Shown here one piece after another: positions 15,172 through 35,051 of a stretch of DNA of 64,000 nt (positions within the stretch are counted from its first letter, which is position 1; the number at the start of each line of letters is the position of its first letter). A program made the translations under genes and the position numbers. The notes under the pieces are model-generated. The model saw only the letters and a list, made by a program, of their open reading frames with translations. It was not told the DNA's origin and did no database searches. The DNA comes from Bacteroidota bacterium (lineage in GTDB: Bacteria > Bacteroidota > Rhodothermia > Rhodothermales > JANQRZ01): assembly GCA_038746285.1 (NCBI GenBank), contig JBCDKT010000018.1, positions 1 through 64,000 on the forward strand. The letters are read 5' to 3'.

Positions 15172-15178
15172 GGACGCG

Positions 15179-15211
15179 CTGGCGCGAAGCGCGACGGCCT
15201 TCGTAATTTTC
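15179..15211 (+). promoter_or_regulatory. Cassette A promoter core before cysS
   Basis: CTG at 15179-15181, exactly 22 bases, then TAATTTTC at 15204-15211. This fits a Bacteroidota-type -33/-7 promoter. The spacer contains GCGCGAAGCGCGACGG, which recurs in cassettes B, C and E. The core is followed directly by the tandem-repeat leader of cysS. Promoter activity is inferred from pattern only. Confidence 0.6.
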
Positions 15212-15224
15212 GTGTCTTTTCTTG

Positions 15225-15322
15225 ACTCTCCCCACTCTCCCCACTCTCCCCACTCTCCCCACTCTCCCCACTCTCCCCACTCTCCCCACTCTCCCCACTC
15301 TCCCCACTCTCCCCACTCTCCC
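15225..15322 (+). repeat. Tandem (ACTCTCCCC) x10.9 array abutting cysS start
   Basis: Ten perfect 9-bp units plus an 8-base partial unit run right up to the GTG of cysS. The complementary strand reads as runs of GGGG separated by 5 bases, a canonical G-quadruplex-forming pattern. The 9-bp unit keeps an open frame of His-Ser-Pro repeats into cysS from an upstream ATG (15212). Copy number is probably variable between strains. Confidence 0.9.
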
Positions 15323-18164: not shown

Positions 18165-18168
18165 GACG

Positions 18169-18201
18169 TTGGCGCGGAGCGCGGTGGTCCCGTTAACTTT
18201 C
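18169..18201 (+). promoter_or_regulatory. Cassette B promoter core
   Basis: TTG at 18169-18171, 22 bases, then TAACTTTC at 18194-18201. The spacer carries GCGCGGAGCGCGGTGG. It matches cassettes A and E at the same spacing and stands 39 bases before the HhH-GPD gene. Confidence 0.65.
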
Positions 18202-18239
18202 TCAGCTTTTCTTTTCACTCCTCCCACTCCTCTGACCCG

Positions 18240-25587: not shown

Positions 25588-25594
25588 TACGAGG

Positions 25595-25627
25595 TCGGCA
25601 CGAAGCGCGACAATCTCGGTAATTTGC
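25595..25627 (+). promoter_or_regulatory. Cassette C promoter core before trpG
   Basis: TAATTTGC at 25620-25627 is preceded at the 22-base spacing by TCG instead of YTG. The spacer retains CGAAGCGCGACAATCTCGG, aligned with cassettes A and E. It may be an internal promoter of the trp operon or a degenerate copy. Confidence 0.45.
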
Positions 25628-25637
25628 TCAGCTTTTT

Positions 25638-25677
25638 CTGTCCTCTGTCCTCTGTCCTCTGTCCTCTGTCCTCTGTC
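25638..25677 (+). repeat. Tandem (CTGTCCT) x5.7 array abutting trpG start
   Basis: Five perfect 7-bp CTGTCCT units and a partial unit end two bases before the trpG GTG. The same word occurs in the lipoprotein signal peptide at 33275-33302 and, inverted, at 33618-33645. Confidence 0.9.
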
Positions 25678-32729: not shown

Positions 32730-32753
32730 CGAGGCGAGGCAGGAGTGGGAAGA

Positions 32754-32786
32754 GTGGGAGGAATGGACAGCGGACGGTGAGGGGCG
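32754..32786. repeat. Purine-rich left arm of cassette D
   Basis: It begins with GTGGGAGGAATGGA (32754-32767), the 14-mer shared with cassettes A and B, and continues GGACAGCGGACGGTGAGG. GGACAGCG and GACGGTG pair with words in the CGCTGTCCACCGTCTCACC stretch after the core. Confidence 0.55.
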
Positions 32787-32819
32787 CTGGCATAGGGCAC
32801 AGCGGCCTCGGTACCTTGT
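32787..32819 (+). promoter_or_regulatory. Cassette D promoter core
   Basis: CTG at 32787-32789, 22 bases, then TACCTTGT at 32812-32819. The GCGC dyad in the spacer is degenerate (GGCATAGGGCACAGCGG), but the GGCCTCGG end and spacing match the other cassettes. It precedes the AtuA-like gene by 64 bases. Confidence 0.5.
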
Positions 32820-32883
32820 TTGACCTCTCTGACTACACCGCTTCGCTGTCCACCGTCTCACCGCACAAACCGTCCCCGAGTCC

Positions 32884-33210
32884 TTGAAAACGAACCTTCT
32901 CCAGATCGCCCACGCCCGCAGCGGCGACAAAGGCGACGCGGTCAACGTCGGCCTCATCGCCCGCAACCCGAAGCACTACGATTTCCTACGCGAGACCGTC
33001 ACCGCCGAGCGCGTCAAGGTTCACTTCGGCCCGATGTGCAAGGGCGAGGTCGAGCGCTTCGAACTCCCCAACCTCGGCGCGCTGAACTTCCTGCTGCACG
33101 AGGCCCTCGGCGGCGGCGGCACCGTCTCGCTCAAGCTCGACGCGCAGGGCAAGACTTACGCCGCCCGCCTCCTGCGGATGGAAGTGGACGTGCCGGACGA
33201 GCTGCGCTAG
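32884..33210 (+). CDS. AtuA-like ferredoxin-fold domain protein
   Basis: The 108-aa product matches the C-terminal domain of the AtuA/DUF1446 family: LLQIAHARSGDKGDAVNVGLIAR at the start, then KVHFGPMCKGEVERFELPNLGALNFLLHEALGGGG. In acyclic terpene utilisation proteins it follows a larger domain; here it is free-standing. The large partner is not in the window. Start TTG at 32884 is the only one that fits, directly after the pyrimidine arm of cassette D. Confidence 0.85.
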   Translation: MKTNLLQIAHARSGDKGDAVNVGLIARNPKHYDFLRETVTAERVKVHFGPMCKGEVERFELPNLGALNFLLHEALGGGGTVSLKLDAQGKTYAARLLRMEVDVPDELR

Positions 33211-33212
33211 GT

Positions 33213-33596
33213 ATGGAAGAGCAGACGTGCGAACGAGCGGAAGCGTCGCTGGCCCCGCCGCAGCGATGCCGTCCGTCCTCTGTCCTCTGTCTTCTGTCCT
33301 CCGCTCTCTTCCTCACTGCCTGCGGAGCCGAGCAGCCGACCGCCCCCAGCCTTTCGGACAGCCTGATGGTCGACGTGCTCGTCGAGGTCCACCTCGCCGA
33401 CGCGCGCGCCGCCCACACGGGTGAGTCGCGGGACAGCCTCCGCGCGGCCGCCCTCGCACCCTTCGGCCTGGACACCCTAGCCTTCCGGCAGGCGCTCGAC
33501 TACTACGCCCAGCACCCGGGCCTCTACGCTCCGGTCTACACTCGTGCCCTCGACCAGGTGATCCGCGAGCGACGCCTGGAGGAGGAGGAGCCGTGA
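33213..33596 (+). CDS. DUF4296-like lipoprotein
   Basis: The 127-aa product has a hydrophobic segment SSVLCLLSSALFLTAC ending in a lipobox (C37) and a short helical domain beginning LSDSLMVDVLVEVHLADA, like DUF4296 proteins of Bacteroidota (function unknown). The signal segment is encoded by four 7-bp GTCCTCT-type repeats (33275-33302), the same word as the array before trpG. The n-region before it is unusually long and polar, so the true start may be internal; ATG 33213 follows the AtuA-like stop by 2 bp. Confidence 0.65.
   Translation: MEEQTCERAEASLAPPQRCRPSSVLCLLSSALFLTACGAEQPTAPSLSDSLMVDVLVEVHLADARAAHTGESRDSLRAAALAPFGLDTLAFRQALDYYAQHPGLYAPVYTRALDQVIRERRLEEEEP
33275..33302 (+). repeat. 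GTCCTCT x4 array encoding a signal peptide
   Basis: Four 7-bp units (two perfect GTCCTCT, then GTCTTCT and GTCCTCC) lie inside the lipoprotein gene and encode its Ser/Val/Leu/Cys hydrophobic core. Inverted copies of the word occur after the gene at 33618-33645. Confidence 0.8.
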
Positions 33597-33645
33597 GACG
33601 GTGGACGGTGAGACGGTGGACAGAGGACGGTGGGACAGAGGACGG

Positions 33646-33678
33646 TTGGCGCGGAGCGCGACGGTCTCGGTAGTTTTA
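33646..33678 (+). promoter_or_regulatory. Cassette E promoter core before pepT
   Basis: TTG at 33646-33648, a 22-base spacer with GCGCGGAGCGCGACGG, and TAGTTTTA at 33671-33678. The left arm (33597-33645) is made of GAGACGGTGGACGGT and GGACAGAGGACGG words. Confidence 0.65.
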
Positions 33679-33690
33679 ACGGCTTTACTT

Positions 33691-33776
33691 CGCCCATCCG
33701 CCCATCCGCCCATCCGCCCATCCGCCCATCCGCCCATCCGCCCATCCGCCCATCCGCCCATTCGCCCATCCGCCCG
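33691..33776 (+). repeat. Tandem (CGCCCATC) x10 array abutting pepT start
   Basis: Ten 8-bp units, one variant (CGCCCATT at 33755-33762), plus a partial unit run to the pepT ATG. The unit length is not a multiple of three, so copy-number change would alter only the untranslated leader. Confidence 0.9.
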
Positions 33777-35051
33777 ATGCCCCCGATTCCTGCCGACACA
33801 GTCGCTGACCTCCCCGCTGTCGCGCGGCGGTTCGTCCGGTACGTGCAGATCGATACGCAGTCGGACCCGGACTCCGCGTCGGTGCCCTCGACGGAGAAGC
33901 AGCTTGTGCTGAGCCGCCTGCTCCTCAGCGAACTACGCGGCTTGGGCGTGGAGGCCACCGTCGACGAGGCGGGCTACGTGTACGCCACGCTGCCCTCTAC
34001 GCTGCCGCCGGGCCACACCGTGCCGGTCCTCGGCCTCGTCGCCCACGTCGACACCTCGCCCGACGAGCCAGGCGGCGGCGTTCGCCCCCTCCTTCACCGG
34101 AACTACCAGGGCGAGGTCATCGCGCTTCCCGGCGACCCGTCGGTCACGCTCGACCCGGCGCGGCAGTCGGCGCTCCGCGCGCACCTCGGCCACGACCTTA
34201 TCACGAGCGACGGCACGACCCTCCTCGGCTCCGACGACAAGGCGGGCGTCGCCGTCCTGATGCAGCTCGCCGAAGACCTCGCCGGCAGCACAGCTCCTCG
34301 GCCTGAGGTCCGCCTCCTCTTCACCGTGGATGAAGAAATCGGGCGCGGTGTGGACCACCTGGACCGGGCGCGCTTCGGAGCGGACGTCGCCTACACGATC
34401 GACGGAGGACCGGTCGGCGAGCTGTCTTCCGAGACCTTCAACGCCGCCGAGGCCACGGTCACGGTCGAGGGGGTGACGGTCCACCCGGGCTATGCGAAGG
34501 GCGTGATGGCGAACGCGGTCCGCGTCCTCGCCGAGTTCATCGCCGCCCTGCCTGCGAACGAGACGCCAAGCATGACGGAGGAGCGGCAAGGCTATTTCTA
34601 CCCATACGCCGTCACGCAGGGCGAGACGGGCCGGGCCAGCGTCCGCATCCTGCTGCGCGACTTTGAGGACGACGGCCTCGCCCGGCGCAAGACGTTCCTG
34701 CGGAGCCTCGCCGAAGAACTCGGGGAGCGGCACCCCCGCGCCCATATCAGCGTCGAGGTTCGGGACTCCTACCGCAACATGCTCCGCTACATCGAAGAAA
34801 CAGACCCGCGCACCGTCTCGTTTGCCGACGCGGCCGCTCGCGCGGTGGGCCTCACCCCCCGCTGGCACCTCGTGCGCGGCGGCACCGACGGGGCGCGCCT
34901 CTCCGAGATAGGCATCCCGACGCCCAACGTCTTCACGGGCGGCTACGACTTCCACAGCCGCTTCGAGTGGAACACCGTCCAGAACCTGAACACCACCCTG
35001 AGCTACGTCAACGCCCTCGTGGAGCACTGGGGCCAGCACGGAGGCACCTGA
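33777..35051 (+). CDS. pepT: Peptidase T (tripeptide aminopeptidase)
   Basis: The 424-aa M20B metallopeptidase removes N-terminal residues from tripeptides in the cytoplasm. Zinc and catalytic motifs are LGLVAHVDTSPDEP, LLGSDDKAGVAVLM, LFTVDEEIGRGVDHLD and the C-terminal FTGGYDFHSRFEW. ATG 33777 follows the CGCCCATC array directly and gives the usual N-terminus (VARRFVRYVQIDTQSDP). Upstream in-frame codons are repeat-derived. Confidence 0.95.
   Translation: MPPIPADTVADLPAVARRFVRYVQIDTQSDPDSASVPSTEKQLVLSRLLLSELRGLGVEATVDEAGYVYATLPSTLPPGHTVPVLGLVAHVDTSPDEPGGGVRPLLHRNYQGEVIALPGDPSVTLDPARQSALRAHLGHDLITSDGTTLLGSDDKAGVAVLMQLAEDLAGSTAPRPEVRLLFTVDEEIGRGVDHLDRARFGADVAYTIDGGPVGELSSETFNAAEATVTVEGVTVHPGYAKGVMANAVRVLAEFIAALPANETPSMTEERQGYFYPYAVTQGETGRASVRILLRDFEDDGLARRKTFLRSLAEELGERHPRAHISVEVRDSYRNMLRYIEETDPRTVSFADAAARAVGLTPRWHLVRGGTDGARLSEIGIPTPNVFTGGYDFHSRFEWNTVQNLNTTLSYVNALVEHWGQHGGT

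Follow-up and report, generated by a model that had tools for sequence, protein, structure and literature searches.

Intergenic elements that run from a purine-rich arm into a pyrimidine-rich arm (R-to-Y) have probably been captured repeatedly as the signal peptides of lipoproteins, and at the gene described here such an element separates the start codon from the codons of the mature protein. As judged from their sequences, the captured segments are predicted to act as export signals. The gene resides in a stretch of 64,000 nucleotides (the window; positions 1 to 64,000 of contig JBCDKT010000018.1, forward strand) from a genome of the Rhodothermales, denoted G000. We compared it with one congener, which belongs to the same genus (G001), and with one genome of the same family, which served as outgroup (G002).

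The gene is an ORF of 127 amino acids plus stop on the plus strand (33213–33596), and its ATG is located two bases past the TAG (33208–33210) of an AtuA-like gene. A match to DUF4296 (PF14129; 35.8 bits against a Pfam cut-off of 27, residues 47–116) identifies the ORF as a real gene, and the protein is matched in 54 of 60 genomes searched, with G000 counted among them. The lipobox ALFLTAC, followed by G, stands after a hydrophobic segment and has an in-frame start 36 codons upstream, as expected for the sequence of a bacterial lipoprotein. The signal peptide is encoded by these 36 codons (33213–33320, plus strand; MEEQTCERAEASLAPPQRCRPSSVLCLLSSALFLTA), which precede the Cys codon at 33321–33323. 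Its n-region is encoded by a purine arm (33215–33243, plus strand) that is a decayed array of 8-bp GGAAGAGC words, and its hydrophobic core by a pyrimidine arm (33275–33302, plus strand) of four GTCCTCT units. Two of the four units are exact, and the other two, GTCTTCT and GTCCTCC, follow them with one mismatch each. TRF reports 3.9 copies with 90% matches, and the in-frame translation is S-V-L-C-L-L-S-S and then LTAC, followed by G. Sequence, repeat finding and translation agree with the first-pass annotation, which had GTCCTCT units encoding the hydrophobic core before the lipobox.

The DNA of this signal is related to repeats found between genes elsewhere in the same genome. It matches 14 intergenic loci of G000, compared to a mean of 0.40 for shuffled sequences, the best match being 82% identical over 50 nt (E 6e-10). 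The purine arm is 83% identical over 29 nt to intergenic 8-bp GGAAGAGC arrays (E 4e-4) and also matches arrays with a 16-bp spacing on contigs C92 and C60, while the right part of the segment is 86% identical over 42 nt to GTCCTCT arrays (E 1.8e-9). For the bases in between (33246–33274, plus strand), the best intergenic match is no better than E 0.076. Since the outer parts match arrays of the same genome and the middle 29 bases match none, 33213–33302 consists of a purine arm and a pyrimidine arm separated by a spacer, an arrangement shared with many other intergenic spacers in G000. A decayed cassette core had been proposed at 33256–33275. A profile built from 64 cores has no match in 33213–33302 among the matches listed, which extend to about E 54, and the conserved core GCGCGAC..TCTCGGTA..TT is likewise absent from between the two arms among these matches, so that no cassette core is detectable in the spacer. 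On the core profile together with the intergenic comparison, a decayed core in 33246–33275 is rejected.

The two-unit 14-mer of the heptamer, allowing at most one mismatch, occurs six times in the window against 0.03 expected, and the exact 14-mer occurs 62 times in G000 (15 forward, 47 reverse), forming 13 arrays; the reversed 14-mer pattern has no occurrence in G000. Among the 60 genomes searched, its own included, three-unit arrays with up to two mismatches are present only in G000, plus three in G002. Six GTCCTCT arrays fall on gene-called sequence, five of them intergenic and one coding. Because the arrays lack stop codons and ORFs continue across them, a stop-to-stop test of arrays within genes is uninformative. 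The earlier observation that the same word is arrayed before trpG is borne out by 5.9 exact copies (TRF) at 25637–25677 on the plus strand; this array is the right arm of a cassette (core 25592–25645) and ends three bases before GTG 25681. Inverted copies reported to follow the DUF4296 gene are also present (33611–33630, 20 nt, 90% complementary). They are part of a purine array (GGACAGAGGACGG; 33597–33646, plus strand), which is the left arm of the next cassette, a separate element with a core of its own.

Cassettes of this type occupy many intergenic spacers of G000. Each contains a core of about 60 bp (GGCGC..GCGCGAC..TCTCGGTA..TT) between a left-hand purine array and a right-hand pyrimidine array, and the array words are 7–9 bp long and differ between copies. 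The core pattern has 70 matches in G000 (control 1) and at most 7 in any of 59 other genomes (controls up to 10); the 4 matches in G001 (control 3) are background. Apart from two partial copies in G002, cores are restricted to G000. Using nhmmer with the profile (71 rows, 7 of which were dropped by eye to leave 64 cores), we located five cores in the window, all on the plus strand (15176–15233, 18166–18223, 25592–25645, 32784–32831 and 33643–33699; E 2.5e-15 to 1.1e-6). The last of these, with an E value of 2.5e-15, lies between the DUF4296 and M20 peptidase genes, and its right array (CGCCCATC, 10.6 copies; 33691–33775, plus strand) stops two bases short of ATG 33778, the start of the M20 peptidase gene. 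Two junctions that hold a cassette in G000, 32730–32883 and 33597–33777, are short in G001, at about 58 and 5 bases, a difference that insertions would be expected to leave. The second reads TAA CGCCC ATG in G001, and because only five bases are present there, the cassette after the DUF4296 gene resembles an insertion.

Some further features of the cassettes were observed. The core columns TTGGCGC and TAnnTT are well conserved and about 19 bases apart, which gives them a promoter-like look, and most other columns are conserved too. Several cores are found no more than about 200 bases from the end of a contig (C40, C97, C20, C58 and C85 of G000), suggesting that the repeats probably break the assembly. 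At C4:42699–43670 of G000 an ORF running through a whole cassette reads PALPALPAL repeats; a start called too far upstream is the more likely explanation. A Y1_Tnp (PF01797) transposase has no match in G000 or G001 and one in G002, and a REP element mobilised by a RAYT (tyrosine REP transposase) is rejected on this result.

The R-to-Y order is strongly favoured over its opposite in the sampled sequence, with ratios of R-to-Y to Y-to-R tracts of 37:1 in G000, 13:1 in G001 and 16:4 in G002. The strict pattern R16N6Y16 finds 29 windows on each strand of G001 and none in the reversed control; it misses G000 because the words of that genome contain C or G. In the genetic code, purine-only codons specify K, R, E and G, and pyrimidine-only codons specify F, L, S and P. 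Translation of an R-to-Y tract therefore gives charged and then hydrophobic residues whatever its orientation, as the reverse complement of R-to-Y is again R-to-Y. Forty uncaptured intergenic elements were translated in six frames: 135 of the 240 frames are stop-free and 65 are charged-then-hydrophobic (two or more K/R in the first half, a hydrophobic second half), with 0 of 240 in the opposite order. After reversal of the elements the counts are 0 and 69, and shuffles give 50 and 57 of 1200. GTCCTCT arrays read VLCPLSS in all three frames. With heptamer arrays independent of frame and R-to-Y preserved on both strands, an element would tend toward a signal peptide in any frame or orientation.

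We propose that an R-to-Y element situated at an operon junction, after the start codon and ahead of the mature part, would be read in frame. A charged n-region, mainly K, R, E and G, would then come from the purine arm, and a hydrophobic core in which L, S, F, P and V are common from the pyrimidine arm; with the start codon beside the stop of the operon partner, such an in-frame element would replace the ordinary signal. Hairpin stability was also considered as a selected feature. The arms of the window copy pair in the predicted fold (z −0.73), and predicted folds of three captured elements, this one included, are not clearly better than those of shuffles (z −0.73, −1.65 and −0.77).

In G002 the DUF4296 ATG overlaps the AtuA-like stop and the signal is an ordinary one of 13 residues (MRRLALVAVLVAG, followed by Cys) without any repeat; relative to it, the window gene carries an in-frame extra segment. 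In G001 the start lies two bases after the upstream stop, a spacing identical to that in the window, and the signal (MRNKREKSQRRERLSFLSPLSLPSFLSLFLTLTG, followed by Cys) is encoded by purine and then pyrimidine tracts. This G001 signal DNA contains no clean tandem array and is itself a dispersed element, matched at nine other places in all at E 0.00104 or better, the best of them being 84% identical over 70 nt (E 1.2e-15). Among the 30 DUF4296 loci compared, a clearly repeat-derived signal is present only in the two congeners. The lipobox scan rule found no lipobox in 5 of these 30 loci, the window's own being among those failing. As a separate observation, a weaker R-to-Y tract (20 and 19 of 24) is present in the orthologue at L021 in G007, which belongs to another family of the order, and the habit may extend beyond the family studied here.

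The first-pass annotation had held that the signal would be repeat-derived only here, and this is wrong, given that the signal DNA of G001 is a dispersed element in its own words; the idea of capture is strengthened by the same result. Its broader claim, that an intergenic element was captured as coding sequence, holds as far as the intergenic matches and the repeat-free G002 orthologue are concerned, while the core and the uniqueness it assumed do not. It did not extend to the recurrence of such signals at further lipoprotein genes. The orthologue comparison it called for is split in the same manner, G002 having a short signal free of repeats and G001 a repeat-derived one in different words. 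No orthologue with the same signal peptide and no repeat in its DNA was seen among those compared.

The purine-pyrimidine signal recurs in both congeners at four further genes, which encode a conserved 360-aa lipoprotein, a DUF4249-like protein, a BamB-like protein and LptE (groups 2 to 5; DUF4296 is group 1). One copy of the G001 element reads as the signal of the group 2 lipoprotein (MRAEKQERRENRRRREPLSLLSLLSLLSLLVTG, followed by Cys), a protein matched in 60 of 60 genomes, and its G000 orthologue has an R-to-Y signal made of G000 words (GAGCGGAAGA, TCCGCTCTTCC). A scan of sample sequence identified the DUF4249-like lipoprotein in G001, which is only "like" because it scores 15.2 bits against a Pfam cut-off of 28.5, and the BamB-like lipoprotein in G002; the orthologues of both have R-to-Y signals in G000 and G001. 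An R-to-Y signal is absent from the G002 orthologues of groups 1 to 3. In G002 the n-region of the group 2 signal (L155) contains another dispersed repeat of that genome, one with a palindrome around AGACGCAGCATGCTGCGTCT (93% over 42 nt, 7 of its own intergenic loci).

A wider lipobox scan covered 860.8 kb of G000 (21%), 796.2 kb of G001 and 398.1 kb of G002 and gave 54, 69 and 28 candidates, of which 6, 7 and 1 score at least 19 of 24 for R-to-Y in both arms. Pooled, these are 14 of 151, with Y-to-R at 0 of 151; the window gene (18 and 21 of 24) falls just under the threshold. Six of the 14 were judged captured by eye, that is, with the start codon in or before the purine arm, and the remainder are ordinary short signals, have the array in the n-region only or are ambiguous (G001 C16:269991). 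The wider scan added LptE and an unrelated lipoprotein on contig C7 of G000. Two G000 lipoproteins, at C7:17183 (plus strand) and C4:119193 (minus strand), were seen to have, in one case, an R-to-Y signal and, in the other, a pyrimidine array in the n-region followed by an ordinary core. The LptE of G000 begins MQRTEDGGRRTDITRSVWRVALLPSVFCLLSSGC, with an n-region of AGGACGG words and a core of GTCTTCT words, both drawn from the word family seen in the window gene. That of G001, read from a TTG start, begins LKVRRGKRRAGRDRRERRSLLPLLSLFLLFSQTGC and is L126 among the matches of the G001 DUF4296 element. Both proteins pass the Pfam LptE cut-off.

Conservation between the congeners starts at the lipobox. 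The BLASTP alignment of the two LptE proteins begins two residues before the Cys and is 83% identical over 151 aa; in groups 1 to 5 the captured signals of G000 and G001 are 32, 42, 56, 22 and 39% identical, as against 85, 79, 64, 76 and 83% for the mature parts. Signal identity is within the shuffled range in four of the five groups. The group 3 signals, at 56%, exceed the best of 200 shuffles and so are not wholly unrelated; some kinship or convergence remains. Captured signals are 31–43 aa in length, and eight pairs of ordinary signals from G000 and G001 are 16–25 aa and 28–88% identical. In one of these ordinary pairs the mature part is just 37% identical, and it may be a paralogue.

How the two congeners came to share the habit allows two readings. 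It is possible, though we favour it less, that different elements were captured independently at the same junctions in each species: at one and the same site the congeners use different words, and core cassettes, plentiful in G000 (70), do not rise above background in G001. Five loci common to both congeners are many for separate events, and the start codon has kept its position at the DUF4296 junction. Insertion or growth of an element in the ancestor of the genus, with the words replaced later in each species, would account for the shared loci, and we infer this course, along with actual export of the proteins.

Selection might also have built these signals without any capture, a charged n-region and an L/S-rich core making DNA that is R-to-Y, so that the resemblance to arrays would be convergent. 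Hydrophobic codons are pyrimidine-rich, and several of the 14 high-scoring candidates have ordinary short signals. Such convergence appears unlikely in view of the word-level identity to arrays of the same genome, which in G000 includes, besides the 82% match over 50 nt, one of 89% over 37 nt. Matching intergenic loci at E<0.01 number 14, 11, 8 and 8 for groups 1 to 4 in G000 and 4, 4, 4 and 3 in G001, whereas shuffled means range from 0 to 0.40. Reversed, uncomplemented signals match 3, 0, 0 and 0 loci in G000, far fewer than the true ones. In G001 they still match 4, 4, 2 and 4, because the words of G001 are low in complexity, and their best matches are much weaker (for group 1, E 3e-5 against 1e-15 for the true sequence). 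Of three models compared, the order-4 model of the genome's own intergenic DNA performs best on seven of nine captured segments, the exceptions being group 3 in G000 and group 4 in G002. Compared with the 5′ ends of genes, the four G001 segments exceed all 273 genes; in G000, 3, 50, 10 and 9 of 314 genes score as high as groups 1 to 4, so that the group 2 segment is not extreme. The words are moreover species-specific, the signals are about twice the ordinary length, and LptE is built from AGGACGG and GTCTTCT words, all of which argue for capture.

The array could instead be a contingency locus in which loss or gain of a 7-bp unit shifts the frame and toggles export, given that 7 is not a multiple of 3 and that ATG 33266, by hand calculation, would come into frame with the mature part once a single unit was lost; this is very unlikely, as the G001 signal at the same gene is without a clean tandem array, and slippage should be rare with only two perfect units left. 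The suggestion that the array is an untranslated leader, with the gene starting further downstream and no signal captured, draws on right arrays of core cassettes that often end a few bases before starts (trpG, the M20 peptidase gene) and on inner alternative starts in groups 3 to 5 in some genomes, and is highly improbable, because no ATG, GTG or TTG start other than ATG 33213 lies in the 90 codons that precede the lipobox Cys (listed distances 167, 95 and 36), a start after the array would remove the hydrophobic core, and the ATG lies two bases past the upstream stop in both congeners.

Capture of R-to-Y elements can be set beside several known systems. The STRR heptamers of cyanobacteria form dispersed arrays between genes. 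The TAACTGA repeats of Beggiatoaceae are likewise reported as dispersed heptamer arrays between genes (PMC4679880). Both are described as intergenic, whereas in the present genomes varied 7–9 bp words either lie on both sides of a core or form opposed purine and pyrimidine arms, and coding copies also occur. The closest precedent is the insertion of palindromic elements in frame into genes of Rickettsia and Wolbachia (RPE/WPE). As described in two reports, these are dispersed, roughly palindromic repeats that lie in frame in coding genes with other copies outside, and RPEs are about 150 bp long and encode a conserved peptide placed in non-structured parts of globular proteins (PMC10969869, PMC2996958). 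The captured element is similar in being in frame within genes and having dispersed copies elsewhere. In contrast to the RPEs so described, the element of G000 and G001 is shorter, sits at the N-terminus and forms a predicted export signal, and both its words and its peptide vary by copy and species. It is the physical pattern rather than the peptide that is conserved, with words turning over between species; a conserved encoded peptide was not found, the congener signals being 22–56% identical. In yeast, de novo membrane peptides are reported to arise from thymine-rich non-genic DNA (PMC7005711). There too, a non-coding composition predisposes toward membrane-directed peptides; here, in contrast, the DNA comes from a defined repeat and has gone to an old conserved lipoprotein, with the purine half contributing a charged n-region.

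Searches of the open-access PMC literature, by title or start of the abstract, found no description of repeat-derived lipoprotein signal peptides, and a literature search on intergenic repeats of Rhodothermota found no paper. The origin of export signals is usually argued from experiments with random sequences. The present loci offer natural cases that can be ordered across congeners, with a short signal in the outgroup, a repeat-derived one in the genus and the donor repeats still in the genome. They point to a simple route from non-coding DNA to export signals and to a compositional rule, by which R-to-Y DNA reads as charged and then hydrophobic on both strands. Beyond this, with the chances evenly balanced, R-to-Y intergenic elements may form a standing reservoir of proto-signals, independent of frame and strand, that has supplied the signals of several conserved outer-membrane lipoproteins (LptE, BamB-like), to be rewritten as words turn over. 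If even so important a protein as LptE carries such a signal, these bacteria would have a high tolerance to the insertion of elements at operon junctions, and wholesale replacement of a signal would be possible.
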